From NCBI GenBank assembly GCA_958295775.1, contig CATQHC010000002.1:324915-388914 (forward strand): DNA of 64,000 nucleotides, read 5' to 3'. Origin of the DNA: Chloroflexota bacterium. Lineage in GTDB: Bacteria; Chloroflexota; UBA11872; VXOZ01. A program made the position numbers and the translations under genes. Numbering within the stretch: position 1 is the stretch's first letter; the number at the start of each line of letters is the position of its first letter. The notes beneath the pieces are model-generated. The model was not told the DNA's origin and ran no database searches. It worked only from the letters and a program-made list of their open reading frames with translations. Below, one piece after another: positions 30,998 to 48,960 of this stretch.

Positions 30998-31228
30998 GAT
31001 AGCTCGGTCGTGCGGCCACTGAATGGTCAACCGTGAGGCCACTGATTGCTCAGCGGGGTGGCTACCAATAGCTAGTCGGCACTGCCAACGATTGCCCAGC
31101 CGGGTGGCCACGGATTGCTGAGCCGGTGCGGTCACCGACTGCGCAGTCATGAGGCTACCGCTTGCTCAGCCGTGCAATCATGGATTGCTCTGTCGCGCGG
31201 CCAACGATTGCCCAGCCGTGTGGCCCGT
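30998..31228 (+). repeat. Ten degenerate 23-bp tandem repeats upstream of tRNA-Val(GAC)
   Basis: The consensus is near GATTGCCCAGCCGTGTGGCC plus three bases, repeated about ten times with a strict 23-base step for the first copies and an occasional 24 later. Units differ at many positions, so this is old. The last unit supplies TTGCCC, which is the -35 box of the tRNA promoter. There are no unique spacers, so it is not a CRISPR array. Confidence 0.8.
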
Positions 31229-31236
31229 GCTATACT
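31208..31236 (+). promoter_or_regulatory. Promoter of tRNA-Val(GAC) copy 1
   Basis: TTGCCC (31208-31213) and TATACT (31231-31236) are 17 bases apart, ending 14 bases before the tRNA. The same pair with the same spacing precedes the second tRNA copy. Confidence 0.65.
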
Positions 31237-31250
31237 CCGCGAAAGAATAG

Positions 31251-31327
31251 GGGCAAGTAGCTCAGCTGGTTAGAGCGCCACGTTGACATCGTGGAGGTCG
31301 GAGGTTCAAGTCCTCTCTTGCCCACCA
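31251..31327 (+). tRNA. tRNA-Val (anticodon GAC), copy 1
   Basis: A complete cloverleaf with acceptor GGGCAAG/CTTGCCC, anticodon arm CCACG-TTGACAT-CGTGG (GAC at 34-36), T-arm GGAGG-TTCAAGT-CCTCT, discriminator A and encoded CCA. It lies at the left edge of the accessory region. Confidence 0.96.
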
Positions 31328-32514: not shown

Positions 32515-32715
32515 TCACTTTCTCTTGAAGTGCAAGAGAATTCCGTAGGCGTTGTCCTTGAGAATCTCGTCCATCTCCTCGGCGAAAGTGGCGAAGGCAT
32601 CGGCGCTATCCAGGAGATTCCGTCGCTCAGCCGGTTGCGGGCCCGGTGCAGGGCTCTCGATGGGCTCAAGGCGCAGCCTCAGTCCCAAATGGACAGCGGT
32701 ACTAGCTGTCGTCAT
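32515..32715 (-). CDS. Small hypothetical protein (66 aa)
   Basis: A short frame whose ATG overlaps the TGA of a decayed upstream frame (the RTVLNRR tail at 32719-32830) in an ATGA arrangement that would allow coupled translation. The C-terminal half (DAFATFAEEMDEILKDNAYG) looks like a regular amphipathic helix, but no family is recognised. It may be the last intact piece of a lost operon, or not expressed at all. Confidence 0.3.
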   Translation of the reverse strand: MTTASTAVHLGLRLRLEPIESPAPGPQPAERRNLLDSADAFATFAEEMDEILKDNAYGILLHFKRK

Positions 32716-32718
32716 CTC

Positions 32719-33039
32719 CTACAGGAGATCCTCGCCCGAAGGCGTACTCCTCGCCTGGTGAACTTCCTGTCTAGAAACTCGTCCAGTTTCCTCCGGTTCA
32801 GCACCGTGCGGCCGCTGGCGCTGGCGCAGCACGCGAAACTTGAACGACCACGCGGGCTGCGGCGCGGGCGTGTGTTTGATTTCGAGTGCGTAGCCGGGCG
32901 GGTCTAAAGCGAGTTCGACGGTGTGGACGATCGTCAAGAGCGTGAGGGCGATCTCGACCTCGGCGAAATTGCTGCCCAGGCAGCGATGGGTTCCCAAGCC
33001 GAAGGGAGCAAAGGCGCCCGGTTCGTGGATTGGTGCATG
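32719..33039 (-). pseudogene. Cytochrome P450 C-terminal remnant joined to a defence-gene tail
   Basis: Reading left from 33039, the frame gives FAPFGLGTHRCLGSNFAEVE, the canonical P450 heme loop (FxxGxHxCxG) with the following L-helix, then the last P450 β-strands. The gene has no N-terminal 300 residues; a stop at 33042 closes the frame. From about 32830 the same DNA, in a different frame, encodes SGRTVLNRRKLDEFLDRKF, closely matching the last residues of the PLD-ATPase at 41509-43566 (GGRTVLNRRELEEFLGTKL). Two unrelated gene ends have thus been joined by rearrangement. Confidence 0.7.
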
Positions 33040-33385: not shown

Positions 33386-33405
33386 TGGTAACAAATACGT
33401 TACCA
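33386..33405. promoter_or_regulatory. Inverted repeat upstream of the toxin-antitoxin pair
   Basis: TGGTAAC and GTTACCA are perfect 7-base arms with a six-base spacer, eight bases before the toxin ATG. The place and symmetry fit an autoregulatory operator bound by the HTH antitoxin. Confidence 0.5.
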
Positions 33406-33413
33406 TATATTGC

Positions 33414-33865
33414 ATGATTGAGATCAGAGAATACGTCGATAAGCGGGGACGCAGTCCTTTCGGTCACTGGTTCGACGGTCTCGACGCCGGGGCGGCTACC
33501 CGGGTGCGGACGGCCCTCGCCCGCATGAAGGCTGGGAATCTCTCCAACGTCAGAGGCGTTGGCAGAGGAGTGCTGGAGTGCCGCATAGACGTCGGCCCAG
33601 GCTTCAGGCTCTACTTCGGCCTAGAACTTGCCTCACAAATATGTCGCTCTGCGTAAACCTGCCCTTCGACAGGCTCAGGGCGAACGGAAAAGGCGAAAAA
33701 CCGTTCATGCTGAGCCTGTCGAAGCACGAGTCGGCTTGTCGCTGATTTATGTGATAGCCTCTGGTAATCCTTCTCGGCGGTGGAACGAAAGTGCGCCAGC
33801 AGAGGGACATCGAGAAGGCTCGTGAGCTCTGGCGAGAGTACAAGCGTCGCAAGCAGGAGGTGTGA
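33414..33865 (+). pseudogene. RelE/HigB-type toxin gene interrupted by a palindromic repeat
   Basis: The first part from ATG 33414 encodes a typical RelE-superfamily killer protein start (IEIREYVDKRGRSPFGHWFDGLD, then ATRVRTALARMKAGNLSNVR and CRIDVGPGFRLYFG) and stops at 33656. The missing C-terminus is found 110 bases later: VILLGGGTKVRQQRDIEKAR followed by a Lys/Arg-rich end with stop at 33865, just ahead of the antitoxin. Between them lies the palindrome 33664-33724. TGTCGCT occurs on both sides and may be a target duplication. The two halves are no longer in one frame, so the toxin is almost certainly dead. Confidence 0.75.
33664..33724. repeat. Palindromic dispersed repeat inside the toxin gene
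   Basis: Two 24-base arms (33664-33687 and 33701-33724) are inverted copies with mismatches in only three adjacent positions, separated by 13 bases. A decayed relative lies near 3806-3882. The layout suggests a MITE- or REP-like non-coding mobile palindrome. Confidence 0.7.
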
Positions 33866-33868
33866 AAG

Positions 33869-34186
33869 ATGCCGCTCACCCGTGACTTCAAGGAGACCGT
33901 GCAGACCCGCGCCGAGCGCGACCCGGAATTTCGCGAAGGGTTGCTAAAGGAAGGTGTCGAGTGCCTGCTTGCCGGGGACGTCGATACGGGCAAGATCGTC
34001 CTGCGTGACTACATCAACGCCACCATCGGGTTCGAGGAGCTTGGTGCCCTCACCGGCAAGCCGCCCAAAAGTCTGATGCGCATGTTCGGGCCGTCCGGCA
34101 ACCCCCATGCTCGCAATCTCTTCGAGGTCATCAGCCGCATCCAGCAGCACGAGGGCGTCCAACTCGAAGTGCATACCGTTCGCTAA
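33869..34186 (+). CDS. HI1420-type addiction module antitoxin (HTH)
   Basis: A 105-residue DNA-binding antitoxin. LTRDFKETVQTRAERDPEFR, the LLAGDVDTGKIVLRDYINATIGFEEL region and the helix-turn-helix around LTGKPPKSLMRMFGPSGNP follow the HI1420 family closely; the protein would neutralise the RelE-type toxin and repress the operon. It begins three bases after the broken toxin frame, the usual toxin-first order. It appears intact, so it is an orphan antitoxin that could protect against related plasmid or phage toxins. Confidence 0.88.
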   Translation: MPLTRDFKETVQTRAERDPEFREGLLKEGVECLLAGDVDTGKIVLRDYINATIGFEELGALTGKPPKSLMRMFGPSGNPHARNLFEVISRIQQHEGVQLEVHTVR

Positions 34187-34365: not shown

Positions 34366-34384
34366 TCTTGCGCAGGTAGCCCAA

Positions 34385-34413
34385 TTGCCCAGGCGTTAGT
34401 CCCCTGCTATACT
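34385..34413 (+). promoter_or_regulatory. Promoter of tRNA-Val(GAC) copy 2
   Basis: TTGCCC (34385-34390) and TATACT (34408-34413) with a 17-base spacer repeat the promoter of copy 1, as does the following CCGC; the spacer itself has diverged. Confidence 0.6.
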
Positions 34414-34427
34414 CCGCCATAGAAGCA

Positions 34428-34501
34428 GGACAAGTAGCTCAGCCGGTTAGAGCACCACGTTGACATCGTGGAGGTCGGAGGTTCAAGTCCTCTCTTGCCC
34501 A
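34428..34501 (+). tRNA. tRNA-Val (anticodon GAC), diverged copy 2
   Basis: Nearly identical to the copy at 31251 over the D-, anticodon and T-arms, but the acceptor 5' strand is GGACAAG against 3' CTTGCCC, leaving an A-C mismatch at the third pair, and no CCA is encoded. It may be a decaying duplicate or a still-functional tRNA with a weakened acceptor stem. Confidence 0.85.
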
Positions 34502-34595
34502 CCCAAACTCTACAAAGTGAAGATCATTCGTGTTGTGGTTCGTGCTGGCAGTGTAGGAGACTAAATGGACCAGAGACACTCAGACGAGGCTGCTA

Positions 34596-37500
34596 ATGCG
34601 CAACCACATGTTGGACAACCGTGACTTCACGGTAGTCGAATACTTACGGGAGCACCTCGCTGATGTAGGGAAGTTCAGCATTGTATCGGCCTATTTCAGC
34701 ATCTACGGCTATGAACTCTTGGCTGACAAGCTGACTCATGAAAAGGAGACGCGCTTCCTCTTCGGCGACCCCTCGTCCGTGGACGACCTCACCCCGGGAG
34801 AGAAGGACGCGAAGGCCTTTACCCTAACGGAGCGCGGCCTCCATCCCAAGCAGACGCTCACGCAGAAGCACTTGGCGGCGCAGTGCGCGCGGTGGCTGCA
34901 GAGCGACGCCGTTGCCGTCCGCTCCGTAAAGCAGTCCAACTTCCTCCACGGCAAGATGTACCTCATGACCGGCGCCGGGGTCGTGGGCAGTTCCAACTTC
35001 ACGCAGAACGGCCTCGGCGGCAGCCGCAGGCCGAACCTCGAAATCAATCTCGCCGTCTCCGCCCCCGCGCTTCTGGCCGAACTGCAAGCGTGGTTCGACG
35101 ACCTGTGGGCCGACGAGGCGCTGACCTACGACGTCAAACAGCGTGTGCTGGAAGCGCTAAACCGACTCGGCCAAGACTACGCCCCGGAGTTCATATACTT
35201 CAAGACACTCTACGAATTATTCCGGGAAAGACTTGACGCCCAACTCGACAGCGACCAGCAAATCCGCGACCGTCGCCTGACCGAGACCGCCGTCTGGAAC
35301 ACGCTCTACGAATTCCAGAAGGACGGCGTCAAGAGCATCATCAACCGGCTGCAGCAATTCAACGGCTGTATCCTCGCCGACAGCGTCGGTCTAGGCAAGA
35401 CCTACACCGCGCTGGCGGTTATAAAGTACTACGAACTCTGCAATGAAAGAGTCCTGGTGCTGTGCCCCAACAAGCTGCGTCAGAATTGGGCGCTGTACCC
35501 GGTTTATCAGATGCAAGCGGGAAACCCTTTCGTGGAGGACCGGTTCAGCTTCACCGTCCTTGCCCACACCGACCTTTCCCGTGATGGCGGCACGTCGGGC
35601 GGCGTAGACCTGGAACGCTTAAACTGGGGTGCCTTCAACCTGGTCGTCATCGACGAGTCGCACAACTTCCGCAACGACGGCGGCAAGCGCTACGAGCGGT
35701 TGCTGAACGACATCATCAAGAGTGGCGGCAAGACCAAAGTGCTCATGCTTTCAGCCACGCCGGTAAACACCTCGCTCATCGACCTGCGCAACCAAGTGCA
35801 CCTCATGACCGAACGGGACGAGGGGCACTTCCGCGAGAGCCTAAACGTTGGCCACGTTGGCAACGTCATGGCCACGGCGCAGCGAGAGTTCAGGCAATGG
35901 GAGAATGAGAAACAGGGGCGGCGCAGCGCGGACAAGGCACGGCTGCTGGCGCGGCTGGGCACGGACTTCCTGCGGCTGTTGGACGGCATCTCCATCGCCC
36001 GCTCGCGGCGGCAGATCACCCAGTTCTATGCCGCCGAGATGGACCGCATCGGCCAGTTCCCACGACACGCCGCTCCGCAGAACCATTATCCCGACACCGA
36101 CCTGCGCAGGGAGCTATCCTATGAAGAATTGGCGGAACAGATCAGAGCCTTCTCCCTATCTATCTACCGTCCCTCCGACTACTTGATCGATAAGGTCCGC
36201 CAACTTGCCTTGCAGATGGAGAAAGAAGAGCGCAACTTCAACCAACGGGACCGGGAGCACTACCTCGTAGGCATGCTCCGCACGAATTTTCTCAAGCGGC
36301 TGGAAAGCTCCCCGCATTCCCTGAACCTGACGCTGGAACGCACGATCGAGAAGATGGACGCCCTGCTGGAACGCATCGCGAGCTACGCTGGCCGGGGACG
36401 TGACGGCGGAGACGTGGGAGATGACCTGCCCGACCGGGATGAGGACGATGAGGATTTCGTCATAAATCGCGCCCGCAATCCGTACCACTTGCGCGAGCTC
36501 GACCTGCCCCGGTGGAAGGCAGACATCGAGCAAGACCGGCAAACCCTCACCTTTCTGCGGGCGCGCGTCCGCGTCATCAGCCCGGAACGCGACGGCAAGC
36601 TGCAACGGCTCAGGCAAGCCCTCCGCGCTAGAGTCCGCAAGCCCACGACGGACGTGGACGGCAAGACCAACCGCAAGCTGTTGGTCTTCACCACCTTCAA
36701 GGACACCGCCCTGTACCTCTACAACGCCTTGCGAGAGGATGCCGCCACGCTCGGCCTGCGCATGGCAATGGTGTCCGGCGATAGCACCCGCGACTCCGCC
36801 AGGGATGACTTAAGGGATGGCCCCCACGGCGGGGCGAGCCGCTTCCACGCCATTCTTTCCGATTTCGCGCCCAAAGCCCGCGGCCGCGGCGAGCACGGCG
36901 GTCGCCCGGACGTGGACCTGCTCATTGCCACCGACTGCATCTCGGAGGGACAGAACTTGCAGGATTGCGACACCGTTCTCAACTACGACATCCACTGGAA
37001 TCCCGTCCGCCTGATCCAGCGCTTTGGGCGCATCGACCGCATCGGCAGCCGTAACGCCGCCGTGCATATGGTCAACTACTGGCCCACCCAGGACATGGAC
37101 GCCTACCTGAAGCTGGAGAACCGCGTCATGGCCCGCATGGCTCTGGTGGACGCCACCGCCAGCGGCAGCGACGATCCTTTTGCTGAGGAGGAACTGCGGG
37201 AGGGCGTGCAGTTGGAGCTAAACTTCCGCGACCGGCAACTGCTGCGGCTCAAAGAAGAAATCCTCGACCTGGACGACCTCTCCGACAGCGTGGTGATGAG
37301 CGATCTTTCCTTGGATTACTTCCTGGCGCAACTGAGGCAATACCTGGAGCGGTACAAGAAAGAGCTGGAGGCGGCGCCTAATGGGGCCTACGCCATCGCC
37401 CCCGCGCCTCCGGAGGGAGCCGGACCGGGTGCCATCTTTCTGCTGCGCCAGCGCAACGCCGCCCCAGTCGGCCCGCGCCAGCGGGTGGCCAGCCCCGTCC

Positions 37501-37844
37501 ATCCTTTCTACTTAGTCTATATCAAGCGCGACGGTACCATACGGTACGGGTGCTCCAACGCGCGGCAGGCCCTCCAGGCCTTCGAGAGCGCCGCTAGCGG
37601 CAAGACCCGGCCGCTCCAGGAACTCTGCGATCGGTTCGACCGGGAGACCAAACAGGGCAAGGAGATGTCGCGCTACGATTCTCTGCTGAACGACGTTATG
37701 TCCCACGTGCGGCAGCGCGAGGCCGCAACCGCTGCTACTAGCCTTGGCAGGGACGGCCCCCGTGACTTCATGCTGCCCAAAACCTCCGAATCGCCCAAAG
37801 ACCTCACCGACTTCGAGTTGATCACGTGGCTAATTCTCGTGTAG
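34596..37844 (+). CDS. PLD-nuclease/SNF2-type helicase fusion, restriction-like defence protein
   Basis: A 1082-residue protein. The N-terminal phospholipase-D-like domain has one HKD-type motif (H118-x-K120, N134 in GSSNFT). A superfamily 2 helicase follows: ADSVGLGKT (about residue 265), VVIDESHNF (DESH, about 353), MLSATPVN, and the C-lobe IATDCISEGQNLQDCDTVLN with WNPVRLIQRFGRIDRIGS (about 805). PLD-type nucleases with helicases occur in restriction systems such as NgoAVII and CglI. The stop overlaps the start of the methylase gene by 19 bases, so the two are translationally coupled and probably form an ATP-dependent restriction-modification pair. A start at 34608 (second Met) is also possible. 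Confidence 0.85.
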   Translation: MRNHMLDNRDFTVVEYLREHLADVGKFSIVSAYFSIYGYELLADKLTHEKETRFLFGDPSSVDDLTPGEKDAKAFTLTERGLHPKQTLTQKHLAAQCARWLQSDAVAVRSVKQSNFLHGKMYLMTGAGVVGSSNFTQNGLGGSRRPNLEINLAVSAPALLAELQAWFDDLWADEALTYDVKQRVLEALNRLGQDYAPEFIYFKTLYELFRERLDAQLDSDQQIRDRRLTETAVWNTLYEFQKDGVKSIINRLQQFNGCILADSVGLGKTYTALAVIKYYELCNERVLVLCPNKLRQNWALYPVYQMQAGNPFVEDRFSFTVLAHTDLSRDGGTSGGVDLERLNWGAFNLVVIDESHNFRNDGGKRYERLLNDIIKSGGKTKVLMLSATPVNTSLIDLRNQVHLMTERDEGHFRESLNVGHVGNVMATAQREFRQWENEKQGRRSADKARLLARLGTDFLRLLDGISIARSRRQITQFYAAEMDRIGQFPRHAAPQNHYPDTDLRRELSYEELAEQIRAFSLSIYRPSDYLIDKVRQLALQMEKEERNFNQRDREHYLVGMLRTNFLKRLESSPHSLNLTLERTIEKMDALLERIASYAGRGRDGGDVGDDLPDRDEDDEDFVINRARNPYHLRELDLPRWKADIEQDRQTLTFLRARVRVISPERDGKLQRLRQALRARVRKPTTDVDGKTNRKLLVFTTFKDTALYLYNALREDAATLGLRMAMVSGDSTRDSARDDLRDGPHGGASRFHAILSDFAPKARGRGEHGGRPDVDLLIATDCISEGQNLQDCDTVLNYDIHWNPVRLIQRFGRIDRIGSRNAAVHMVNYWPTQDMDAYLKLENRVMARMALVDATASGSDDPFAEEELREGVQLELNFRDRQLLRLKEEILDLDDLSDSVVMSDLSLDYFLAQLRQYLERYKKELEAAPNGAYAIAPAPPEGAGPGAIFLLRQRNAAPVGPRQRVASPVHPFYLVYIKRDGTIRYGCSNARQALQAFESAASGKTRPLQELCDRFDRETKQGKEMSRYDSLLNDVMSHVRQREAATAATSLGRDGPRDFMLPKTSESPKDLTDFELITWLILV

Positions 37845-40800
37845 ACCTCCAGGAGACACTGCGCGCCGCGCTGCGCTCGGCGCAAGCAGGCGATTTCGCG
37901 CAGCAGGCAAAGAATCTGCTCGCCGCGCTTGGCTACCGCAGCGAGCGTGTGCTGCTAGGGCAAACCGGTTCCGTGGACGATTTTCTGGAGCAATTCCCAG
38001 CAGAAACCCCCGGCACGAAGTCCGCGTCGGCGTTTCGTGAAGCCGCCGTTTCTATCCACGTGCTGTTTCAGGTGACGGACGAGGAGATCGAGGAGGCGGG
38101 CGGCAATCTGAGGCTCTTCAAGGACAACGAGTTCGACACGGGCATCGTCAGGAGTTTTCTCTTCACCGTCGTTGAACTCCGGGGCAACACGTATGCAAAG
38201 GGCCGTTACGCTTCCTTCACCCGGGAGATCAACAAGTGCTTTCCCACCATACCCGCTGTCGTCCTGTTTCGTACTGCCTCAGGGCGCATCACACTGTCAT
38301 TTGTCCACGTGCGCCCCAACAAGCGCAACCCGGAGCGTAATGTGATCGGCAGCGTCTCGCTCATTCGGGAGATTGTATCGGGGCGGCCCCATCGCGCCCA
38401 CTTGGACATTCTTGCGGAGCTAAGTGTAATAGAGCGCCTGCGGTGGATGGACGCTCACAAAGTGGAGCGCAACTTCGACGGCCTCCTTGCCGCATGGCTG
38501 GATGCCCTCGACACAGAGGAGTTGAACCGACGCTTCTACCGCGATTTGTTCCGCTGGTTCGAGCGGGCCGTCAAAGAGGCCCGCTTCCCGTCTGATGGCA
38601 AAAGGCAACTGAAACCGGAGGAGCATGTCATCCGGCTAATCACCCGGCTGCTTTTCGTCTGGTTCATCAAGGAGAAAGGGCTGGTCGCGGAGGATTTCTT
38701 TGTAGAAGCGCAGGTGACGCGACTGCTCAAAGAGTACGACTCCAAGATTGGCGATTCGTACTATCGTGCCGTCCTTCAAAACCTCTTCTTCGCTACCCTG
38801 AACACGGAGATTGGACAGCGCAGCTTCAGCAGTCGCGCGAACGCTACGCACCGGAACTTTTCTCGCTATCGCTATAGGGAAGAGATGAGCGATCCGGACG
38901 CCCTTGTCGCGCTCTTCGCCAAGACGCCCTTCATCAATGGCGGCCTCTTCGATTGCCTGGACAGCGAGGAGGCAACGGGCGACGGTGGCTATCGCATCGA
39001 CTACTTCAGTGACAACGTCATTCGCAAGGGGACGGAAGAGTACGAAAGATTCTCAATCCCGAACCGCCTGTTCTTTGACGAAGACGGTCTGATCACACTC
39101 CTCAACCATTACAAGTTCACAGTGGAGGAGAACACCCCAGCGGAGCAAGAAGTAGCTTTGGATCCGGAGCTATTGGGCAAGGTTTTCGAGAATCTGCTGG
39201 CTGCCTACAATCCCGAAACCAGGGACACCGCCCGCAAGCAGACCGGCTCCTACTACACGCCCCGGGCAGTGGTGGACTACATGGTGGACGAGGCGCTAGT
39301 GGCGTCTCTCGCCCAGAACGTCCCGCCCACGGACGGCGACGCGGACTTCTGGCAGGAACGCCTCCGCTACTTGCTGGATTACGTTGCCGCCTCTGAGGAT
39401 GCCGCGGAACTCTTCGACGAGGCCGAGACCGACGGGATCGTGCGCGCCATTGCCAGGCTGCGGGTGCTGGACCCGGCGGTGGGCTCCGGCGCGTTCCCCA
39501 TGGGCGCGCTGCACAAGCTCACCCTAGCCCTGCGCCGGCTGGACCCGGAAAATACCCGCTGGGAGGCCCTGCAGAAGGAACTGGCCGGCCAACAGGCCGC
39601 GGCCGCCTTCGACACCGCCAACCGGCGGCAACGCGACGCGGAACTGGCCGACATCAGCGCGACCTTCGAACGCTACCGCGATTCCGACTTTGGCCGCAAG
39701 CTCTACCTCATCCAGAACAGCATCTACGGCGTGGACATTCAGCCGGTGGCCACCCAAATCGCCAAGCTGCGCTTCTTCATCTCCCTGGCCATCGAGCAGC
39801 AGCCCACCGACGCTGCCTCCGACAATTACGGCATCCGGCCGCTGCCCAACCTGGAGACGCGCTTCGTGGCCGCCAACACCCTGCTGGGGCTGGGCAAAGC
39901 CACCCAAATTCCCCTGGGCGTGCAGAATGAAGTCGGCGTGTTGCAGAACCACCTGCGCCGGAACCGAGAGCGGCACTTCCACGCGGGTAGCCGCCAAGAG
40001 AAGCTGCGCCTGCGCCGGGAGGATACACGGCTGCGCGGCGTGTTGGCGCGGGAGCTTGGCAAAGCCGGCATGTCCGCCTCCGACGCGGGCAAGCTCTCTC
40101 GCTGGGACGTCTACGACCAGAACGACAACGCCGACTGGTTCGACCCGGAGTACATGTTCGGCGTCGCCGAGGGTTTCGACATAGTGGTTGGCAACCCGCC
40201 CTACGTGCAGTTGCAGCGGGACGGCGGCAAGCTGGCCGACCGCTACCAAGACGCCGGCTTCACCACCTTCACCCGTACCGGAGACATCTACCAGTTGTTC
40301 TACGAAATGGGGTTCCGACTGCTAGCCCCCGGCGGCCTGCTCTCCTTCATCACGTCCAACAGTTGGCTGAAGGCGGAGTACGGCAAGGCTACCCGCCGCC
40401 ACGTAGCCGGGAACTTTAGCGTGCTGCGGCTGCTGGAGGCCGGCAAGGACGTGTTCGAGAACGTCATCGTGGACGCCAGCATTCTGATAGCGCGCAATGA
40501 CAGGGTCGGCACGGGCGGCAAGGCGGTGGACATGGACCGCCTTGCCGACAAGACCTTCCCGCCGGTGGAGGAACTCTGGAATCCCTTCGTTCCCCAGCGG
40601 GAGGCGCCGTGGAGACTGCTCTCTCCGGTAGAACGGAGCATCCTGGACAAGATGGAAGCCGCGGGCACGCCGCTGGCAGAATGGGACGTGAACATCAATC
40701 GTGGAGTCCTCACCGGCTACAACGCGGCGTTCATCATCGACAGTGCGACGCGGGAGTCGCTTGTCGTGCGAGACCCAAAGGCTGCGGAGATCATCAAGCC

Positions 40801-41431
40801 CGTTTTGCGCGGGAGAGACATTCAGCGCTTTACGGCAAAGTGGGCAGGACTGTGGCTGATTGACACGCACAACGGGTATGGTGACGTTCCCGCAATCAAC
40901 GTGGATGACTACCCCGCGGTCAAGGCACATCTCGATCACTTCTACGCCCGACTGCAAAAGCGGCAGGACAAGGGTCGGACACCATATAACCTGCGCAGTT
41001 GTGCCTACAATGAGGATTTTGCTAAAGAGAAGCTGTTCTGGATGCAAATGTCTGGTAGTGGTCGATTCTCATTCGCGGATCGTGGAGTTTACAGTAACCA
41101 GAAAGCCTTCATGGTTACTGGCAGTTCGCTAAAGTACCTTTGTGGACTTTTGAATAGTAAACTTAGCACTTGGTTCATGAAAAACACTGGTGTAACGACG
41201 GGAATGGGGCTGGTACAGTGGGATAAGTTCTCAGTCGCAAGAATTCCTATCCCAATGATTGACGATGCCAAAGAGAGTCCGTTCATTCAACTGATTGATA
41301 GCATCCTCGACGCCAAGGCAACGAACCCCGACGCAGACACAAGGAAGGAAGAAGCAGTGATAGAAGGATTGGTCTATGGCTTGTACGGGCTGACCGAGGA
41401 GGAGATTGCGGTGGTGGAAGGCAAGGGCTAG
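37826..41431 (+). CDS. Eco57I-type adenine-specific DNA methyltransferase/restriction protein
   Basis: A 1201-residue protein of the Eco57I/type IIG or PglX-like group. A large N-terminal region (about 1-540) without clear motifs precedes the γ-type N6-adenine methylase domain: motif I VLDPAVGSGAFPMGAL (about 550) and the catalytic NPPY in IVVGNPPYVQLQ (about 790). A C-terminal target-recognition region with repeated β/helix elements (TGMGLVQWDKFSVARIPIP) completes it. It should methylate the host's recognition site and may help direct the partner PLD-helicase. GTG at 37826 overlaps the helicase stop. No BREX or DISARM partner genes are present, so the pair is not placed in those systems. Confidence 0.87.
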   Translation: MANSRVDLQETLRAALRSAQAGDFAQQAKNLLAALGYRSERVLLGQTGSVDDFLEQFPAETPGTKSASAFREAAVSIHVLFQVTDEEIEEAGGNLRLFKDNEFDTGIVRSFLFTVVELRGNTYAKGRYASFTREINKCFPTIPAVVLFRTASGRITLSFVHVRPNKRNPERNVIGSVSLIREIVSGRPHRAHLDILAELSVIERLRWMDAHKVERNFDGLLAAWLDALDTEELNRRFYRDLFRWFERAVKEARFPSDGKRQLKPEEHVIRLITRLLFVWFIKEKGLVAEDFFVEAQVTRLLKEYDSKIGDSYYRAVLQNLFFATLNTEIGQRSFSSRANATHRNFSRYRYREEMSDPDALVALFAKTPFINGGLFDCLDSEEATGDGGYRIDYFSDNVIRKGTEEYERFSIPNRLFFDEDGLITLLNHYKFTVEENTPAEQEVALDPELLGKVFENLLAAYNPETRDTARKQTGSYYTPRAVVDYMVDEALVASLAQNVPPTDGDADFWQERLRYLLDYVAASEDAAELFDEAETDGIVRAIARLRVLDPAVGSGAFPMGALHKLTLALRRLDPENTRWEALQKELAGQQAAAAFDTANRRQRDAELADISATFERYRDSDFGRKLYLIQNSIYGVDIQPVATQIAKLRFFISLAIEQQPTDAASDNYGIRPLPNLETRFVAANTLLGLGKATQIPLGVQNEVGVLQNHLRRNRERHFHAGSRQEKLRLRREDTRLRGVLARELGKAGMSASDAGKLSRWDVYDQNDNADWFDPEYMFGVAEGFDIVVGNPPYVQLQRDGGKLADRYQDAGFTTFTRTGDIYQLFYEMGFRLLAPGGLLSFITSNSWLKAEYGKATRRHVAGNFSVLRLLEAGKDVFENVIVDASILIARNDRVGTGGKAVDMDRLADKTFPPVEELWNPFVPQREAPWRLLSPVERSILDKMEAAGTPLAEWDVNINRGVLTGYNAAFIIDSATRESLVVRDPKAAEIIKPVLRGRDIQRFTAKWAGLWLIDTHNGYGDVPAINVDDYPAVKAHLDHFYARLQKRQDKGRTPYNLRSCAYNEDFAKEKLFWMQMSGSGRFSFADRGVYSNQKAFMVTGSSLKYLCGLLNSKLSTWFMKNTGVTTGMGLVQWDKFSVARIPIPMIDDAKESPFIQLIDSILDAKATNPDADTRKEEAVIEGLVYGLYGLTEEEIAVVEGKG

Positions 41432-41508: not shown

Positions 41509-43566
41509 TTATCGCCTACTGAAGAGCTGTTTGAGTAGGCTTTTTCCCCGATCACTGAGCTTCGTTCCTAGAAACTCCTCCAATTCTCTGCGGTTCAGCA
41601 CCGTGCGGCCGCCGACGCTGGCGTTGTCGTCGATGAGGGTGGAGGGGACGTTTTCCCAGTCGAACTCGCGCCTGCCGAAGGTGTCTTTCTGTTCGATCAC
41701 GATGACCTTGTTGGCTTCCAGAATCCAGCCGGTGGGGTGGTCGCCGTCCTTCTTCAGGCGGGTGGCGGGCCGCAGCAGGTGTTCGAGCTGAGACTTCACC
41801 CGCTCGTGGCGTTTGTCCGCGTATTCATCCCACGTAATGGGCGCGCACCATTTTGGCGGGCTTTCGTCCAGCAATTCGCCGATCAGCCCGGCGAGGATGG
41901 TGGATGAGAACGCAAGCCAGTCATCGGGTTGGGGTTCTTCATCCAATTTTCCGAGCGCCCGCCGCAGGTATTCCCGGTAGAAATGCGTGGAGAGGCCGCG
42001 GCGCACTTCCTGAATCTTCAGATGCAACTCGTGGCGCAGCTTGTCCTTGTATGAGGGAAGCGCCGTCGTCGTGTAGATCATGAGGCTGCGCTTGACTATC
42101 TGATCGCTGAAGGCCTTCAGGTCCTGGTTCATCGAGAGCACGAAGCAGGGGTATTCCGCAACCAGCGGCGGGTTTTCGTCCTTGATGACATCCTCGCCGT
42201 GGTTGCGAATGGCGGGTCTGCCGATATCGTCGAACACCGCGGGAAACCGCTTGTAGGCGTGTTGAATGTCCCTCAGCCGGGCCCGGGTAAATTCGCGTTT
42301 ATCGACGCTGTAGGCCTTGCCGAACATGGACGTCATGAGAGTCTCGATGAGACTGGACTTGCCGCACGACGGCTTGCCGTAGACGATGGCGAACGACGGG
42401 AACCGGAAGATGTCCCCTTGGTGTCCGGCCAGTGTGCGCATGTCGCACATGAAGGGCGCGAAGTAGAGCCACGACCAGAGGATGAAATAGTCACGCTGGA
42501 GCCGCTCCACCCCCATGCCGCCCTCGAACGTGCCTTCGTAATTGCTGAAGAACTCCACCAGCAGGGCTGCATCCTGCTTGGCGGCGGCGAGGTCAGCCTC
42601 TAGGGAAAACGGCTCGCCGAGGAGCAGGACGCGCTTTGTGTCCCTATCGATGGACAGTTCCCGATGGTCGGCGTCTTCCTCGTGTTGCACAGTGCGAATG
42701 CGGCTCGACTCCCGCACGATCTTGCGCCTGATGTCAGGGGTCACGAGCTGTCTGCCGTTTCGCAGCGGCGGCATGAGGTTGGCTACCACCGGCGGGATCG
42801 CCGCTTTCATCTTCTCAATGCGCTCTATTTGTGCGGGAACGGCAATGTGGGCGCCACCGCCTGGTCCCTGCTCGTTCTCTTGGTTATCAATTAGCAAATT
42901 GGAAATGTCTTCAGTGTTGAGAACGGGAACTTCCTGCAGCGCAATTCCAGTGTGCTCGATACGCTCAGGCGGCAGAGGAATCTCATCAGATGCCCGGTTT
43001 CGAATAGTCTCGTACATCCCGAGGTAATGGCGCCACGCAGCGTCGTCATCGTCGAAGCAGACCAAGGTCTCGGATTGGCGTCCCCCAAAGGCCGTCTCCG
43101 ATAGGTTGGCGGAGCCGATGAGAGCGCGCGTGCTACCGGAATCCGTGTTTTCAAGCAGGTAGAGCTTGGCATGGGCGATCTGTTTGCGCAGCACCCGAAA
43201 GCGCGCTTGTCCCTCCCTGACGCGGCCTAGGATGAAGGCGTGGCGTTCGTCGGGCAGGTTCTTGATGGCGGCCCGGGTATCACCGCTGGCGACCTGCTGG
43301 AATGCCATGATGTCCTTGAGCGTACGCAGCGTACTTTCACATCCAAGCACACATTCGAATTCACTAAAGCCGTGCCTTTCGAGCAACCGGACTATTGCGC
43401 TCACGCCCGCCGAATACGTGAGGATGCGAATGCGGTCGTAGCCGTCAAACAGCGACCAGTCGAACTTAGCCTCAGTCTCAAAACGCACGTGTGCCACCCG
43501 CAGCCCACTGCCGTCGTCGAAGTCGAATCCGCGGGTCTCCGCTTGTTCGGATTCTCGCAACGACAC
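41509..43566 (-). CDS. PLD-nuclease/P-loop ATPase fusion, candidate defence effector
   Basis: A 685-residue protein. Residues 1-180 form a phospholipase-D-like domain with HAKLYLLE (H132, K134) and GSANLS (N153). A linker is followed by an ATPase domain with Walker A GKPSCGKSS (397-405) and Walker B FPAVFDDIG (D446, D447); the following VAEYPCFVLSMNQDLKAF resembles a sensor-1 strand as in SF3/AAA+ ATPases. The last residues (GGRTVLNRRELEEFL) recur as a remnant at 32719-32830. An obligate dimer is expected, since a single HKD half-site is present. It lies downstream of the exonuclease-RecQ-UvrD gene on the same strand (279-base gap) and convergent with the methylase. No described system with this layout is recognised from memory. 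Confidence 0.75.
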   Translation of the reverse strand: MSLRESEQAETRGFDFDDGSGLRVAHVRFETEAKFDWSLFDGYDRIRILTYSAGVSAIVRLLERHGFSEFECVLGCESTLRTLKDIMAFQQVASGDTRAAIKNLPDERHAFILGRVREGQARFRVLRKQIAHAKLYLLENTDSGSTRALIGSANLSETAFGGRQSETLVCFDDDDAAWRHYLGMYETIRNRASDEIPLPPERIEHTGIALQEVPVLNTEDISNLLIDNQENEQGPGGGAHIAVPAQIERIEKMKAAIPPVVANLMPPLRNGRQLVTPDIRRKIVRESSRIRTVQHEEDADHRELSIDRDTKRVLLLGEPFSLEADLAAAKQDAALLVEFFSNYEGTFEGGMGVERLQRDYFILWSWLYFAPFMCDMRTLAGHQGDIFRFPSFAIVYGKPSCGKSSLIETLMTSMFGKAYSVDKREFTRARLRDIQHAYKRFPAVFDDIGRPAIRNHGEDVIKDENPPLVAEYPCFVLSMNQDLKAFSDQIVKRSLMIYTTTALPSYKDKLRHELHLKIQEVRRGLSTHFYREYLRRALGKLDEEPQPDDWLAFSSTILAGLIGELLDESPPKWCAPITWDEYADKRHERVKSQLEHLLRPATRLKKDGDHPTGWILEANKVIVIEQKDTFGRREFDWENVPSTLIDDNASVGGRTVLNRRELEEFLGTKLSDRGKSLLKQLFSRR

Positions 43567-43845: not shown

Positions 43846-46800
43846 CTACTCTGGCTCGAATACCAATTCCGGTACCACAACTTCCCACTTCTCGCAGCGA
43901 AGACTGTCTTGATAGTGCGGCTCAGATTTTTCCTTATCCCACGAGACAATTGCCAGGACCGTGGCAAATGCGCACCGCATGTCATTAGGTGGCGCGAAAC
44001 TGCTCGCAAGTTGGCCTATGACCGTTTCATTGCAATCAAGAAGCTGCCAGCGGTTATGCCTCTCTCGCACTTCCAGCGTGTCTCCAGGCGAGAGCGCGGC
44101 GATGGCATGATGCACCAGATCGTCAGGACGCCTGTACCCGGCAAAGCTGAGAAAGATGTCGCGCAGGCTGAGCCGCCGATAGCTGCGCGCCAATTCCGGC
44201 CTTGCCGGCGGCAGGTTGACGAGTGGTTTGCGCTGCTGCACCGAGGCAAGGTCAGACAAGGTGTGCTGAAAGGGCTGCACTCCCGAAAGGCGTGCGAGAG
44301 CCAGGGTCTGCCGCGCGCGGGTCATTGCCACATAGTACAGTCGCCGCGGAGCATCCCTATCTTCGTCGCGGCCAACGCGGTCCCAGCCGCCGTCAAGCAC
44401 GAAGACGTGATCGAATTCCAATCCCTTGGCGCGGTGGGCCGTGAGCAATAGCAGGCCGCGCTGGCGGCGGCGCACTTCTCGTGCCCACTCCGCCAGCCAT
44501 TCGATGAAACCGTCCACCGATGTTTCGCTGCTGCCAGATTCCAGCACGAATTCGGATACTGCCTCCTGCAGCAGTTCGATCCAAGGGCCGGGAGGTTGCG
44601 CAGCAATCCACTCTTCCATAGCTGCAATCTTTACTAGGCGAGATCCTCTCCCGCGCAGCCAATCTACAAACGCGCGAGTCTCCCGCAAGTGCCAGACGCC
44701 GGTGAATTCCTCATTCGCCATCTGCACTGGAATTCGTTCCAACTCGCACAGGCTGCGCACCGGATCCAGGTGGCTCCATTCACGGGCGATCACCGCGCAG
44801 GCAGACCAGTCCCAGTTCGGCGCCCTTGCGGACAATCTCTTCAACTCCGCTAAGACTGCCTGGGCTTGGGAGATTGGCGTATCTCCGGCTTGTAGAATCT
44901 GGACTTGCCCCCGGGCGATCGGGTCAAACTTAGCCCACGCGCCGCCGGCGTCTTCTCTGGCCCGCGTTCGATTGACATGGATGGGATGCCCGGTCTTCAT
45001 CCGCTCGCGCGCGGGCTCTATTACTGCATTGGCCGCGGAAATGATGTTGGCGGTGGAGCGATAGTTGTCGGTGAGGTAGGCAGGCTTGGCCGTGTAGTCC
45101 GCCTCGAAACGACGGATGAATTCGACGGACGAACCATTGAAAGCGTAGATATTCTGATCGTCGTCTCCCACCGCAAACAGGCTGATCTTGTCATCTTCCT
45201 CGGATAGCGTTCTGCCTGCCAGGGCGGAGATTAGTTCATACTGGTCCGGGCCAATGTCTTGGTACTCGTCAACGAGTATCCAGCGGAATCCGGCCAAGAG
45301 GCGGGTGCGGTTCTCATCAACTTCATCCGGCTCCAATCCTGTGCCGTGGAGCAAGTCCACCGCTTGCCGCAAGATGTCTTGAAAATCGCCTTCGTTCAGG
45401 CGGTTCGCGCGTCCTGTGAAGCTCGCGCCGACCAGCCGCATGGCGAGGGCGTGCAAGGTAAGGACAAGCACGCCTTTGGCATCATCCCCGATGAGTTCTC
45501 CCAGCCGGCGGCGTATCTCCACCGCGGCGTGCCGGTTGTAGGCGAGCGCCAGGATGCCGCGCGGATTCTCGCGCTTCGCGCGGATGAGGAAAGCAATGCG
45601 GTGCACCAGCACGCGCGTCTTACCCGAGCCGGGACCGGCCAGCACCAAGACATTCGTCTGCTCACGGTCGTCCGCGACAATTCGTCGCTGGATTGGGTTT
45701 TTGAGGCTCTCGACGATGCTCTGCCATGATTCCGGGGTGGTTTGGCGCTCAAGCTCCTTTCGTTCTCGATCAGGCAGCCAGCGGCGCAGGAATTCTTCTC
45801 GGCGCAAACTGAAATAGTCCATGACCATGCGCAGGGCGTCGGCCATCGCCTCCAGTCCCCGCTGTACATATTCCGCCATCACGTGTATCTGGAGCTTCTG
45901 CTCATTGTAATGAAGTTCGAGGGGTGTATAGTCGGCTGAAGCGAAGCCGCGCTGCTCCGGTTTCAGTTGGATGGTCATGGCTGGGCGAAAGACCGTGAGT
46001 CCCTTATTGAGCCGAATGACCTCCTGTTCGTGCAGCCACAGTAGGGCGCGGTCCATCAGTTTCTCGGGACTCTTGACTTGGCTCGCTAGTGTCATGTCGG
46101 ACTTGATGGCCGCTAGCAACTTGCCTAGTGTTGTTTCGGCAAGTAGGTCTGTGCCGCGGCTGCCGGGAGGGAGACTGTCCAGCAGGTGATTTAAGAGACG
46201 CTTAGCGGCGGCGCGGCGCAGTTCGGCAGTCTTATTCAAACTTTCCCAGTCGCGCTGCAACGTTATGGAGATGTTTTCCCTATCGTGCTCCCGCACGCCA
46301 AGGCTACCACCGCCGCCGCCCTCGCCCCGCCCGTCGGCGGCAAGGCTGCGGACGATCCGCCGTACGAGTTCGGGAAGAGCGTAGGCGTGACCCTCGTCCT
46401 TGAGCCGTTGCGTGGCCATGCGCAGATGGAGCAGCCACGTATCGCCCTTTTCCGTTACATAGTCGGTTTCCTGCATGAGGCCGATTAGGGCCTGCTCCAG
46501 ATTTGCCGCTTGCTCGAGGCGTTGCCGCGAGTGTCGCTGCACCCCAACGTGCACGAAGGCGGTCAACACCGTGTCGTTGCTGGCAATGCCCAACCGCTCC
46601 AGGTCGTACATAGCAGCGCGCACGCCCTCCGGGCTCAGACCCGACGCGGCCATGAGTTCGTCGGTGGAGATGCCCCCATCAGCATCCGCGTCGATCAGAG
46701 CCTCTGCGACTTTCAGCAGTTGGCCGCAGTAGGTTTCGGCGATCTTGACTTTATTGAGCTTGGCTTCTGCCTCGTTGACAGAACTAACGCGGAGGGAAGA

Positions 46801-48960
46801 CGGAAACACATTGACGCGGTTTACTTCTCGCTCCAGTAGTGCCGACTCTTCCAGCCAGGCCACGGCGGTGCGTGTCCGGGTGTCGTCAGTGGCAGAGTCC
46901 CGCTTGAAGGCTTTCTCATCGTCCTCGCCAAGGATTTCGCCGGCGGTGGCCACCACCTCTCCCTTCAAGCGCCCCTTGCGGTCCAAGTTACGCAGCGCCC
47001 GCAGCACGCCGTGGATTTCGCGCCGCGTGAGCCGCGAACGGGCCGACATGCCGAACTGGCGCTCCACGTCGTCAATCGTGTAGAGCAGCACACAGCGAGC
47101 CCCCTGCTGATCCCGTCCGGCGCGGCCCGCCTCTTGTAGATAGTTCTCCAAAGAACCGGGGACGTCTGCGTGGATCACCAAACGCACGTCCGGCTTATCG
47201 ATGCCCATGCCGAAGGCGTTGGTGGCGGTGATGACCCGCAATTCGCCGCCTATGAAGCGCTTTTGAACATCCTTCTTCGTTTCTGGCGGCAGTCCCGCGT
47301 GGAAGTATTCCGCCTCCATTCCCTTTGCCTGCAAGTGCTCTGCGACGTTCTGAGTCTGCTGCCGCGTCGCGCAGTAGACGATAGCGCCGCCCTGCCCATC
47401 AGCGGGCAGATCGGCCGTGAGGATTTGGTGAATGTCGTTGAACTTAGCGCCGCTGCTTGTCGGCAGCACATCGAAAGTCAAGTTGTCGCGTCGCGCGCCG
47501 CCGTCGCAGACCTTCAGCGCGGCGCCGATCTCATCCTTGAAATAGTCCACGACTTCCGCTATGACATCGGGTTTGGCTGTCGCGGTCAGGCATAGCACCG
47601 GCGGCGCCGGCTCTTCCCCTGCCCGCTTGCGGATGAAGCGTCCCACGTAGCGGTAGTCGGGACGGAAGTCATGGCCCCATTTCGAGAGGCAATGGGCCTC
47701 GTCCAGCACCCAAGCGCCGATCTCACGCTGATCGAGGACACGCTGTACAGAAACGCTGCGCAGTTGCTCCGGCGCGATGATGAGGATGCCGGCATCCCCC
47801 AGCCGCACCCGGTCGAGCGCATCGGACCGCTCGGGCATGGACAAGAGGCTGTTGATGGTAACGCAAGAGCCAATGCCCCGTGCCTCAAGGCCTGCCACTT
47901 GGTCGGCCATCAGCGCGACTAATGGCGAGATTACTACCGTCAACGCGCCGGTCTTGTCATAACGCGAGAGGGCGGGAATTTGGTAGCAAAGCGATTTGCC
48001 GGATCCCGTGGGAAGTATACCGAGCACGTGCTCGCCTGCCATTGCCGCTTCGATGATTGATTGCTGCATTGGCCGACCGGACTCGTCCATTGGCTCCGGA
48101 CGGAAATCGGAGAAGCCAAACCAGCGGGCCATTTCCTTACGGGCATCGTGTCGTTCTCGGCACCAAACGCACGCACTATCGGTGCACGGGGTGTCGCGCA
48201 GGCGGCGTACCAAGAGTCCTGCTTCGGGAAATTGGTGTCGTACCCAAGGCGGCATGACCGAATTGCCACCGGCTACCGAAAGCCACGCGAGCGCATAGGC
48301 CAACGCCCAGCATTTGCGGGCCGTGTCAGTTTCAATCTCCCGTGCGGCTGTAGTGCATGAGCTACCTGAAAGTCGCGCTTGCAGGGCATTTCTTGCCTCG
48401 ATTTCAGAGGGTTTGCTTGCACGGCGCAGATTAGTAAACACCCTGTCGAAGCCTGAGCCGTCTTCCGTTGAAGTTAGCCAATGCCAGGCTATGAGCAAGT
48501 CAGACGGCGCCTGACGCAAAGCCTCTTGCTGGTTGCTAAGGACTTCCAAGGTCAGTCTCGCATCCAGCTCCGGATCGTTGACGCGCCCGCGCCTGAGTTG
48601 TCCGTCTTGATAGTGCTTGACCAAATGGTGATATGGGTTGCGGGGAAAGGCGAGAGGATTGAGGCGCAGTGTATCTACGGCCGGTAGCCGCAGTAGCCGC
48701 AGGCGAGGGCTGGCGGCTTGCAAGTGCGGCAGGTCGAAAGCAATCAGATTGTGCCCCAATACGAAGTCCGCGCCCTCAGCGAGATCGTCCAGTTTCGCCA
48801 ACGCGGCCGCTAGGCTTTCTCCTCTTGAGGGGAAGACAAAGGATTGACCTGTATCTGAGCGAACACCGGCCAAGGCATGGATGCGTTGGTCGCGTTTGCC
48901 CACTTCCAGGTCAAGAGAGAGGCAATAAAGTGAAAGCCGCTTCGCTGCGTCAGGCACCAC
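43846..48960 (-). CDS. DEDD exonuclease-RecQ-UvrD helicase triple fusion
   Basis: A 1704-residue protein with three parts. Residues 1-145 are a DnaQ-like 3'-5' exonuclease (DLE at 17-19, D76 in GHNLIAFDLPHL, D133). After a Cys cluster (CTDSACVWC, about 260-270) comes a RecQ helicase: LPTGSGKSLCYQ (about 320), VLDEAHCLSKWGHDFRPDY, ATNAFGMGIDKPDV and QEAGRAGRDQQGA. The usual zinc cysteines after the RecQ core are absent. The last 620 residues are a UvrD-type SF1 helicase: VLAGPGSGKTRVL (about 1107), LVDEYQDIG (about 1232), TAHRAKGLEFDHVFVLDGG. It should process DNA ends or unusual structures; its place beside PLD and methylase genes suggests action on invading DNA. Confidence 0.88.
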   Translation of the reverse strand: MVPDAAKRLSLYCLSLDLEVGKRDQRIHALAGVRSDTGQSFVFPSRGESLAAALAKLDDLAEGADFVLGHNLIAFDLPHLQAASPRLRLLRLPAVDTLRLNPLAFPRNPYHHLVKHYQDGQLRRGRVNDPELDARLTLEVLSNQQEALRQAPSDLLIAWHWLTSTEDGSGFDRVFTNLRRASKPSEIEARNALQARLSGSSCTTAAREIETDTARKCWALAYALAWLSVAGGNSVMPPWVRHQFPEAGLLVRRLRDTPCTDSACVWCRERHDARKEMARWFGFSDFRPEPMDESGRPMQQSIIEAAMAGEHVLGILPTGSGKSLCYQIPALSRYDKTGALTVVISPLVALMADQVAGLEARGIGSCVTINSLLSMPERSDALDRVRLGDAGILIIAPEQLRSVSVQRVLDQREIGAWVLDEAHCLSKWGHDFRPDYRYVGRFIRKRAGEEPAPPVLCLTATAKPDVIAEVVDYFKDEIGAALKVCDGGARRDNLTFDVLPTSSGAKFNDIHQILTADLPADGQGGAIVYCATRQQTQNVAEHLQAKGMEAEYFHAGLPPETKKDVQKRFIGGELRVITATNAFGMGIDKPDVRLVIHADVPGSLENYLQEAGRAGRDQQGARCVLLYTIDDVERQFGMSARSRLTRREIHGVLRALRNLDRKGRLKGEVVATAGEILGEDDEKAFKRDSATDDTRTRTAVAWLEESALLEREVNRVNVFPSSLRVSSVNEAEAKLNKVKIAETYCGQLLKVAEALIDADADGGISTDELMAASGLSPEGVRAAMYDLERLGIASNDTVLTAFVHVGVQRHSRQRLEQAANLEQALIGLMQETDYVTEKGDTWLLHLRMATQRLKDEGHAYALPELVRRIVRSLAADGRGEGGGGGSLGVREHDRENISITLQRDWESLNKTAELRRAAAKRLLNHLLDSLPPGSRGTDLLAETTLGKLLAAIKSDMTLASQVKSPEKLMDRALLWLHEQEVIRLNKGLTVFRPAMTIQLKPEQRGFASADYTPLELHYNEQKLQIHVMAEYVQRGLEAMADALRMVMDYFSLRREEFLRRWLPDRERKELERQTTPESWQSIVESLKNPIQRRIVADDREQTNVLVLAGPGSGKTRVLVHRIAFLIRAKRENPRGILALAYNRHAAVEIRRRLGELIGDDAKGVLVLTLHALAMRLVGASFTGRANRLNEGDFQDILRQAVDLLHGTGLEPDEVDENRTRLLAGFRWILVDEYQDIGPDQYELISALAGRTLSEEDDKISLFAVGDDDQNIYAFNGSSVEFIRRFEADYTAKPAYLTDNYRSTANIISAANAVIEPARERMKTGHPIHVNRTRAREDAGGAWAKFDPIARGQVQILQAGDTPISQAQAVLAELKRLSARAPNWDWSACAVIAREWSHLDPVRSLCELERIPVQMANEEFTGVWHLRETRAFVDWLRGRGSRLVKIAAMEEWIAAQPPGPWIELLQEAVSEFVLESGSSETSVDGFIEWLAEWAREVRRRQRGLLLLTAHRAKGLEFDHVFVLDGGWDRVGRDEDRDAPRRLYYVAMTRARQTLALARLSGVQPFQHTLSDLASVQQRKPLVNLPPARPELARSYRRLSLRDIFLSFAGYRRPDDLVHHAIAALSPGDTLEVRERHNRWQLLDCNETVIGQLASSFAPPNDMRCAFATVLAIVSWDKEKSEPHYQDSLRCEKWEVVVPELVFEPE

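Follow-up and report, generated by a model that had tools for sequence, protein, structure and literature searches.

The window analysed here is a 64,000-nucleotide stretch of a Chloroflexota genome (contig CATQHC010000002.1). It holds two consecutive genes, designated HEL and MT, which encode a predicted motor-nuclease and a predicted DNA methylase, respectively (Table 1). The original prediction described a PLD-like nuclease fused to an SF2 (SNF2-like) helicase whose gene overlaps that of an Eco57I-type adenine methylase by 19 bases. Both open reading frames are present, and the length of the overlap is exactly as described.

Table 1. Features of the HEL-MT locus (positions in the window)
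Feature	Position	Strand	Basis
tRNA-Val(GAC) at the left edge of the pair's variable slot	34428..34503	+	second copy; other copy at 31251-31327
HEL, HKD (PLD) nuclease fused to a RapA-like SNF2 motor, 1082 aa	34596..37844	+	ATG start; domain/profile matches, model
HKD nuclease domain of HEL, aa 13-175	34632..35120	+	alignments; BfiI profile match
SNF2/RapA-like motor of HEL, aa 226-860	35271..37175	+	alignments, structure match
C-terminal region of HEL, aa 861-1082	37176..37841	+	conserved across methylase-type and type III-type helicases
Overlap of HEL and MT, 19 bases	37826..37844	+	ORF coordinates
MT, Eco57I-type N6-adenine methylase with TaqI-like specificity domain, 1201 aa	37826..41431	+	GTG start; domain/profile matches
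DUF4391-like N-terminal domain of MT, aa 1-205; proposed to dock HEL	37826..38440	+	homology with controls; only beside HEL; model
Helical domain of MT, aa 206-440, common to other IIG/PglX-type methylases	38441..39145	+	others match from about 205 onward
Methylase core of MT, DPAVGSGAF (aa 549-557) to NPPY (aa 790-793), both conserved	39470..40204	+	alignment
TaqI_C-like target recognition domain of MT, aa 991-1142; its most variable part	40796..41251	+	domain match, identity profile

Architecture of HEL and MT

HEL carries PLDc_2 (residues 85–171) together with SNF2/Helicase_C matches above the Pfam cut-offs, so the predicted fusion was confirmed in one chain. Its best PADLOC profile was "HKD+Snf2" (E 2e-104). 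A profile built from 35 HEL relatives matched the PLD restriction enzyme BfiI (2c1l, E 4e-4) in the HKD domain and RapA in the motor. E. coli RapA was also the top PDB match of the AlphaFold model (pLDDT 79.5; E 6e-15), with low global TM-scores of about 0.3. These profile searches and the structure match place the motor in a RapA/DrmD/BrxHII-like group; the score of HEL against the NCBIfam DrmD equivalog (145.7 bits) was below the cut-off of 610. The domain search gave no match to an SRA domain in HEL. In the alignments, the Walker A motif (ADSVGLGKT, 261–269) and the DESH motif (353–356) are invariant among relatives, as are His118, Lys120, Asn134, and Glu149 of the HKD domain among the methylase-type relatives, in which the helicase is partnered by MT. 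BfiI and SauUSI have one HxK per chain and build their active site from two protomers (PMC7913695). HEL likewise has a single HxK per chain, and a dimer is therefore expected.

MT matched Eco57I (E 8e-32) and TaqI_C (E 4e-11) in Pfam. Its start is backed by homologues: at least 80% of 43 relatives have Met at the aligned first position. The catalytic motifs of the methylase, like those of the motor, are conserved in the alignments. The target recognition domain (TRD) has a mean identity of 16–30%, against 44–66% for the segments of the conserved core; such divergence would be expected if the target sequence differs from system to system. The best PADLOC profiles of MT are "type IIG REase-MTase", and the original prediction also called the methylase IIG-like. 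This description suits the methylase and the TRD but not the N-terminus, which is DUF4391-like and has no recognizable nuclease motif. The model of the N-terminal domain (pLDDT 83) gave no PDB fold match at E<0.05. Among the invariant residues of 34 homologues, there is no set of the D/E...ExK (PD-(D/E)XK) type; the invariant polar residues are Arg133, Asn136, Arg163, and His192.

Conservation of the gene pair

In a sample of 400 Chloroflexota genomes, HEL relatives (E<1e-30) were found in 68. Full-length relatives with 44–79% identity are present in 13 genomes, and an MT homologue adjoins HEL in all 13. Such conservation of both frames, at full length and in 13 genomes of the phylum, means that they are not chance reading frames. 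The reverse search, with residues 1–205 of MT, matched in exactly the same 13 genomes and in no others; other large methylases in the 400 genomes match MT only from about position 205, with a few weak matches starting at about 164–180. A scan of GTDB species genomes yielded 80 HEL-family loci in about a dozen phyla, including Poribacteria, Cyanobacteria, Proteobacteria, Verrucomicrobiota/Lentisphaerota, Bacteroidota, and Planctomycetota. Methylase-type loci account for 59 of the 80. MT lies downstream of HEL in 53 and upstream in two (L130 and L159); a fragment of MT is found at a contig end in one (L131), and the contig stops within 723 bp of HEL in the remaining three. Wherever the flank is sufficient, MT adjoins HEL. 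The co-occurrence in other genomes that the original prediction had proposed as a check is thus borne out, both in the phylum sample and at every readable methylase-type locus of the scan.

HEL is also located directly upstream in all four readable viral contigs that carry the MT N-terminal domain, while this domain was not found in the plasmid collection. That the methylase form came from plasmids or phages was considered and rejected, because the plasmid collection lacks the domain and the helicase matches from plasmids and phages are only about 35% identical. Two plasmids inspected among these matches both carry a type III operon.

Neighbours of the pair and known larger systems

The neighbouring genes of 72 methylase-type loci were clustered, and no family except HEL and MT occurs near more than 14 of them. 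The most frequent is a RecF/SMC-like ATPase of about 550 residues (14 of 72), whose gene often overlaps MT by one base; DUF1016/YhcG nucleases occur near ten. The pair might accordingly be viewed as the remnant of a larger system, or as a module that can detach from one, with this ATPase as a possible further component. However, about 80% of the loci, among them the window and all of its close relatives, have no such ATPase, and no family is constant. We regard this explanation as very improbable.

A profile search of the whole host genome found no DUF499, MZB/DUF1998, or PglZ gene. Where one of the other 12 pair-bearing genomes has such a gene, it is on a contig other than that of the pair or at a distance of about 240 kb; this applies to DUF499, found in four of the 13 pair-bearing genomes, while the MZB matches are all on other contigs. 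No DISARM, ARMADA, BREX, or BREX-related (BR) gene was found as part of the HEL-MT unit in the neighbour scans. The expectation that no BREX, DISARM, or type I specificity gene lies nearby was therefore correct. Since there is no constant third family and the marker genes are absent or distant, the pair does not lie inside a larger known system, and loss of the partners of such a system in this genome was rejected on the same grounds. The idea of a compact two-gene system, for which consistent occurrence within larger systems had been named as the refuting observation, has thus held up.

An alternative is that the pair acts by exclusion, as in BREX or DISARM: MT would mark self DNA, and HEL-MT would block phage replication or remodel proteins on DNA, while its nuclease activity would be lacking or of minor importance. 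The affiliation of the motor with the RapA/DrmD/BrxHII-like group fits this explanation, and class 1 DISARM and ARMADA contain similar helicase-methylase pairs (PMC12458937). Against it, HKD residues as strictly conserved as these speak for cleavage, and the host genome has none of the DUF1998/YprA, PglZ, and DUF499 partners. Exclusion is therefore considered improbable.

Genomic setting

The pair occupies a variable slot between the second tRNA-Val(GAC) and a resident PLD-ATPase gene (41509-43566, reverse strand). It is present in two of six genomes of the genus. One congener (G033) is 95% identical up to this tRNA and then carries, instead of the pair, a three-gene cluster with BrxC/D-like ATPases; in another relative (G149), a different N6 methylase gene occupies the slot. 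Because relatives hold other defence-type genes there, the slot is a defence hot spot and the pair its cargo. The G033 cluster (L195:7242-10295), with two BrxC/D-like ATPases, is a candidate defence cassette that lacks the other BREX genes.

The PLD-ATPase, 685 residues long, combines a P-loop ATPase and an NgoFVII-like PLD domain and belongs to no named family. It was rejected as a third component, because it is resident in all five near-complete genomes of the genus regardless of the presence of the pair. An apparent gene remnant at 32715-32825 (reverse strand) resembles its last 37 residues with 54% identity. The tRNA-Val(GAC) and its upstream sequence form a 120-bp duplication (31207-31326 and 34384-34503; 89% identical), and a toxin-antitoxin-like gene pair (about 33405-34186) is located between the two tRNA copies. 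Beyond the PLD-ATPase gene, a 1704-residue fusion of RecQ-like and UvrD-like helicases is encoded at 43846-48960 (reverse strand); its N-terminal region looks DEDD exonuclease-like by eye, and it is absent at the matching place in two congeners (G213 and G033).

DUF4391 and a sister type III operon

Comparison of MT residues 1–205 with DUF4391 by hhalign gave probabilities of 92.8–96.5 with E values from 4e-7 to 1e-9 (E about 2e-9 over 154 columns at a probability of 96). The controls (HEL segments, other MT segments, and unrelated neighbour families) reached at most 2%. By these profile comparisons, the N-terminal domain of MT is a remote homologue of DUF4391. A second operon with the same helicase family contains HEL, a stand-alone DUF4391 protein, a type III Mod, and a Res with an endonuclease domain. 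It is also found on plasmids of E. coli (IncFIB) and of lactic acid bacteria. The four-gene operon, in which the HKD of the helicase is dead, is widespread (L073-L078, L154-L180, L199, and L200). It does not look like plain type III restriction-modification; to our knowledge, classical type III systems have neither an extra SNF2 protein nor DUF4391.

Because of this homology, both types of operon give HEL a partner with a DUF4391-like domain, which is part of the methylase in the first and a separate protein in the second. From this co-occurrence, we infer that the domain may dock HEL. A broader proposal is that DUF4391 is a universal docking domain, through which one RapA-like SNF2 motor could be plugged into unrelated modification enzymes: an Eco57I-type methylase by fusion, and type III Mod/Res as a separate subunit. 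The nuclease would move from the HKD of the motor to Res after the switch, and the result would be a modular class of restriction-modification with a fixed motor and exchangeable recognition and nuclease. We offer this proposal tentatively, at slightly less than even odds. More distant HKD-SNF2 helicases (L080, L081, L083, and L095) are located beside McrB-like AAA_5 genes, with Mrr_N as well in L080, or beside a type ISP methylase, which suggests that the HKD motor is combined with still other recognition modules.

In the literature searched, we found no account of the DUF4391 link or of the partner switch, and no name for the pair or the DUF4391 operons; DUF4391 had one incidental mention. 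A paper on the lake metaepigenome proved unrelated.

State of the HKD domain and partner type

The HKD signature (HGK, GSSN, and E) is intact in all 67 distinct methylase-type helicases with a readable N-terminus, while it is destroyed in 27 of 29 type III-type helicases (25 of the first sets and two more). The loss takes several forms, such as MGG-F, PQSI, AQQR, and SNAR. The PD-(D/E)XK motif of Res (NPDW...ETK) is kept in every type III-type locus in which the nuclease region is covered. The two remaining helicases (L162 and L222), which are 86% identical, are located inside the type III clade with the HKD intact. Therefore, the state of the HKD is not strictly tied to the partner, and a perfect correlation was discarded. 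L222 is a complete four-gene operon of the type III kind; with its HKD and Res nuclease motifs both intact, it has the character of a transitional operon (L222:2484-11174, reverse strand).

In a quick tree rooted with an outgroup, the type III-type clade is nested within the methylase-type helicases; in a smaller, careful tree, both types form clades with full support. The simplest history would be an HKD-active motor with a DUF4391-methylase, a single partner switch to type III, and subsequent decay of the redundant HKD. Because this involves one clade and one switch, the contrast in the HKD cannot be counted as many independent events.

These observations bear on the explanation that MT is a self-contained type IIG restriction-methylase, with HEL as an accessory motor or as a separate defence gene that travels along. 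The PADLOC assignment favours it, and the DUF4391-like domain sits where the nucleases of IIG enzymes usually lie; with no match to a known fold, it might be an unrecognized nuclease. However, the 34 homologues share no invariant D/E...ExK-type set, and the homologous DUF4391 stands beside a Res that already has a PD-(D/E)XK nuclease. HEL and MT are also inseparable in both directions, and the HKD is kept in every methylase-type helicase. MT is therefore probably not a true, self-sufficient type IIG enzyme; we consider a self-contained MT unlikely, if marginally less so than exclusion.

Proposed mechanism

We propose that HEL and MT constitute a two-gene, ATP-dependent restriction-modification system, with a probability of about 0.68. 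MT would recognize and methylate DNA, its DUF4391-like domain would dock HEL, and the HKD domain would cut. The proposal draws on the coupling of the genes, the domain homology, the intact motifs, the nuclease swap pattern, and the variable TRD. Complex formation, docking, translocation, cleavage, an m6A motif, and phage restriction are what we infer for HEL-MT.

MT may recognize its DNA sequence through the variable TaqI_C-like domain and methylate adenine in host DNA, while its N-terminal domain holds the HKD-SNF2 protein. At an unmethylated site, the complex would switch from methylation to ATP-driven movement along DNA by the RapA/SNF2 motor. What counts against this step is that RapA-like proteins can act by remodelling protein-DNA complexes instead of travelling far along DNA. 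The dimerized HKD domains would then cut foreign (unmarked phage) DNA; like SauUSI or the type I/ISP enzymes, they might do so at a distance from the recognition site. The motor of the sister operon, which is the same but usually has a decayed HKD, may be coupled by the stand-alone DUF4391 protein to Mod/Res, and Res would supply the nuclease.

If this is true, there is a restriction-modification family with modification and motor-nuclease in separate genes, which current tools would call an orphan "type IIG" methylase and an unassigned helicase. DUF4391 would gain a testable job. Type IIG-like and type III-like restriction would be linked via a common motor and adaptor, with the L222 operon as a transitional form. 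What is new here is the DUF4391 homology of the MT N-terminal domain, the second operon with the same helicase family, and the contrast between intact and destroyed HKD by partner type.

Comparison with known systems

The prediction that nuclease and helicase are one chain is correct, but such a fusion is not itself new: a PLD nuclease and an SF2 helicase are joined in SauUSI (PMC7913695) and in the type-2 BR and PbeA helicases (PMC12839542, PMC10853773). Type-2 BR systems are the closest in architecture, with an HKD on the N-terminus of an SNF2 helicase, an N6-adenine methylase, and an RM-like character (PMC12839542). However, they need a DUF499 ATPase, DUF3780, and a DUF1156 methylase. The absence of DUF499 from the host genome therefore separates the pair from them; moreover, MT matches Eco57I/TaqI_C and not DUF1156, and no small third gene is constant among the neighbours of the 72 loci. 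In class 1 DISARM and ARMADA, a RapA/BrxHII-like helicase likewise adjoins a large PglX/Eco57I-type methylase (PMC12458937). These systems need a YprA/DrmA-type helicase with DUF1998/MZB, which the host genome does not have, and the PLD protein of DISARM is separate, whereas the HKD of HEL is fused to the motor. BREX is characterized by PglZ, which the host genome also lacks.

Like HEL, the type IV enzyme SauUSI joins a single N-terminal HxK PLD domain (a dimeric, BfiI-like nuclease) to an SF2 motor in one chain, and it is ATP-dependent. However, SauUSI recognizes DNA through an SRA-like domain of its own, and its substrate is methylated DNA (PMC7913695), whereas recognition in the pair would reside in the separate methylase. 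A SauUSI-like system would have no methylase, and one accompanies HEL at every readable methylase-type locus. NgoAVII and CglI also combine a PLD nuclease, an SF2 ATPase, and a methylase, but their nuclease and ATPase are separate subunits (R2H2), and the former carries a B3 recognition domain (PMC7913695).

Type III restriction-modification is related through the sister operon, which pairs the same helicase family with Mod and Res. In contrast, the system in the window has no Mod/Res, and the HKD is its only recognized nuclease. Type IIG enzymes (Eco57I and BpuSI) share with MT a large N6-methylase and a TaqI-like recognition domain in one chain, but MT has no recognized N-terminal nuclease and has an obligate neighbouring motor-nuclease. 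PADLOC and NCBIfam offer only the unassigned HKD+Snf2 profile for HEL and a generic type IIG for MT, and the cut-offs of DrmD and other equivalogs are missed widely. The HEL-MT pair is thus a variety of restriction-modification rather than a categorically new system.
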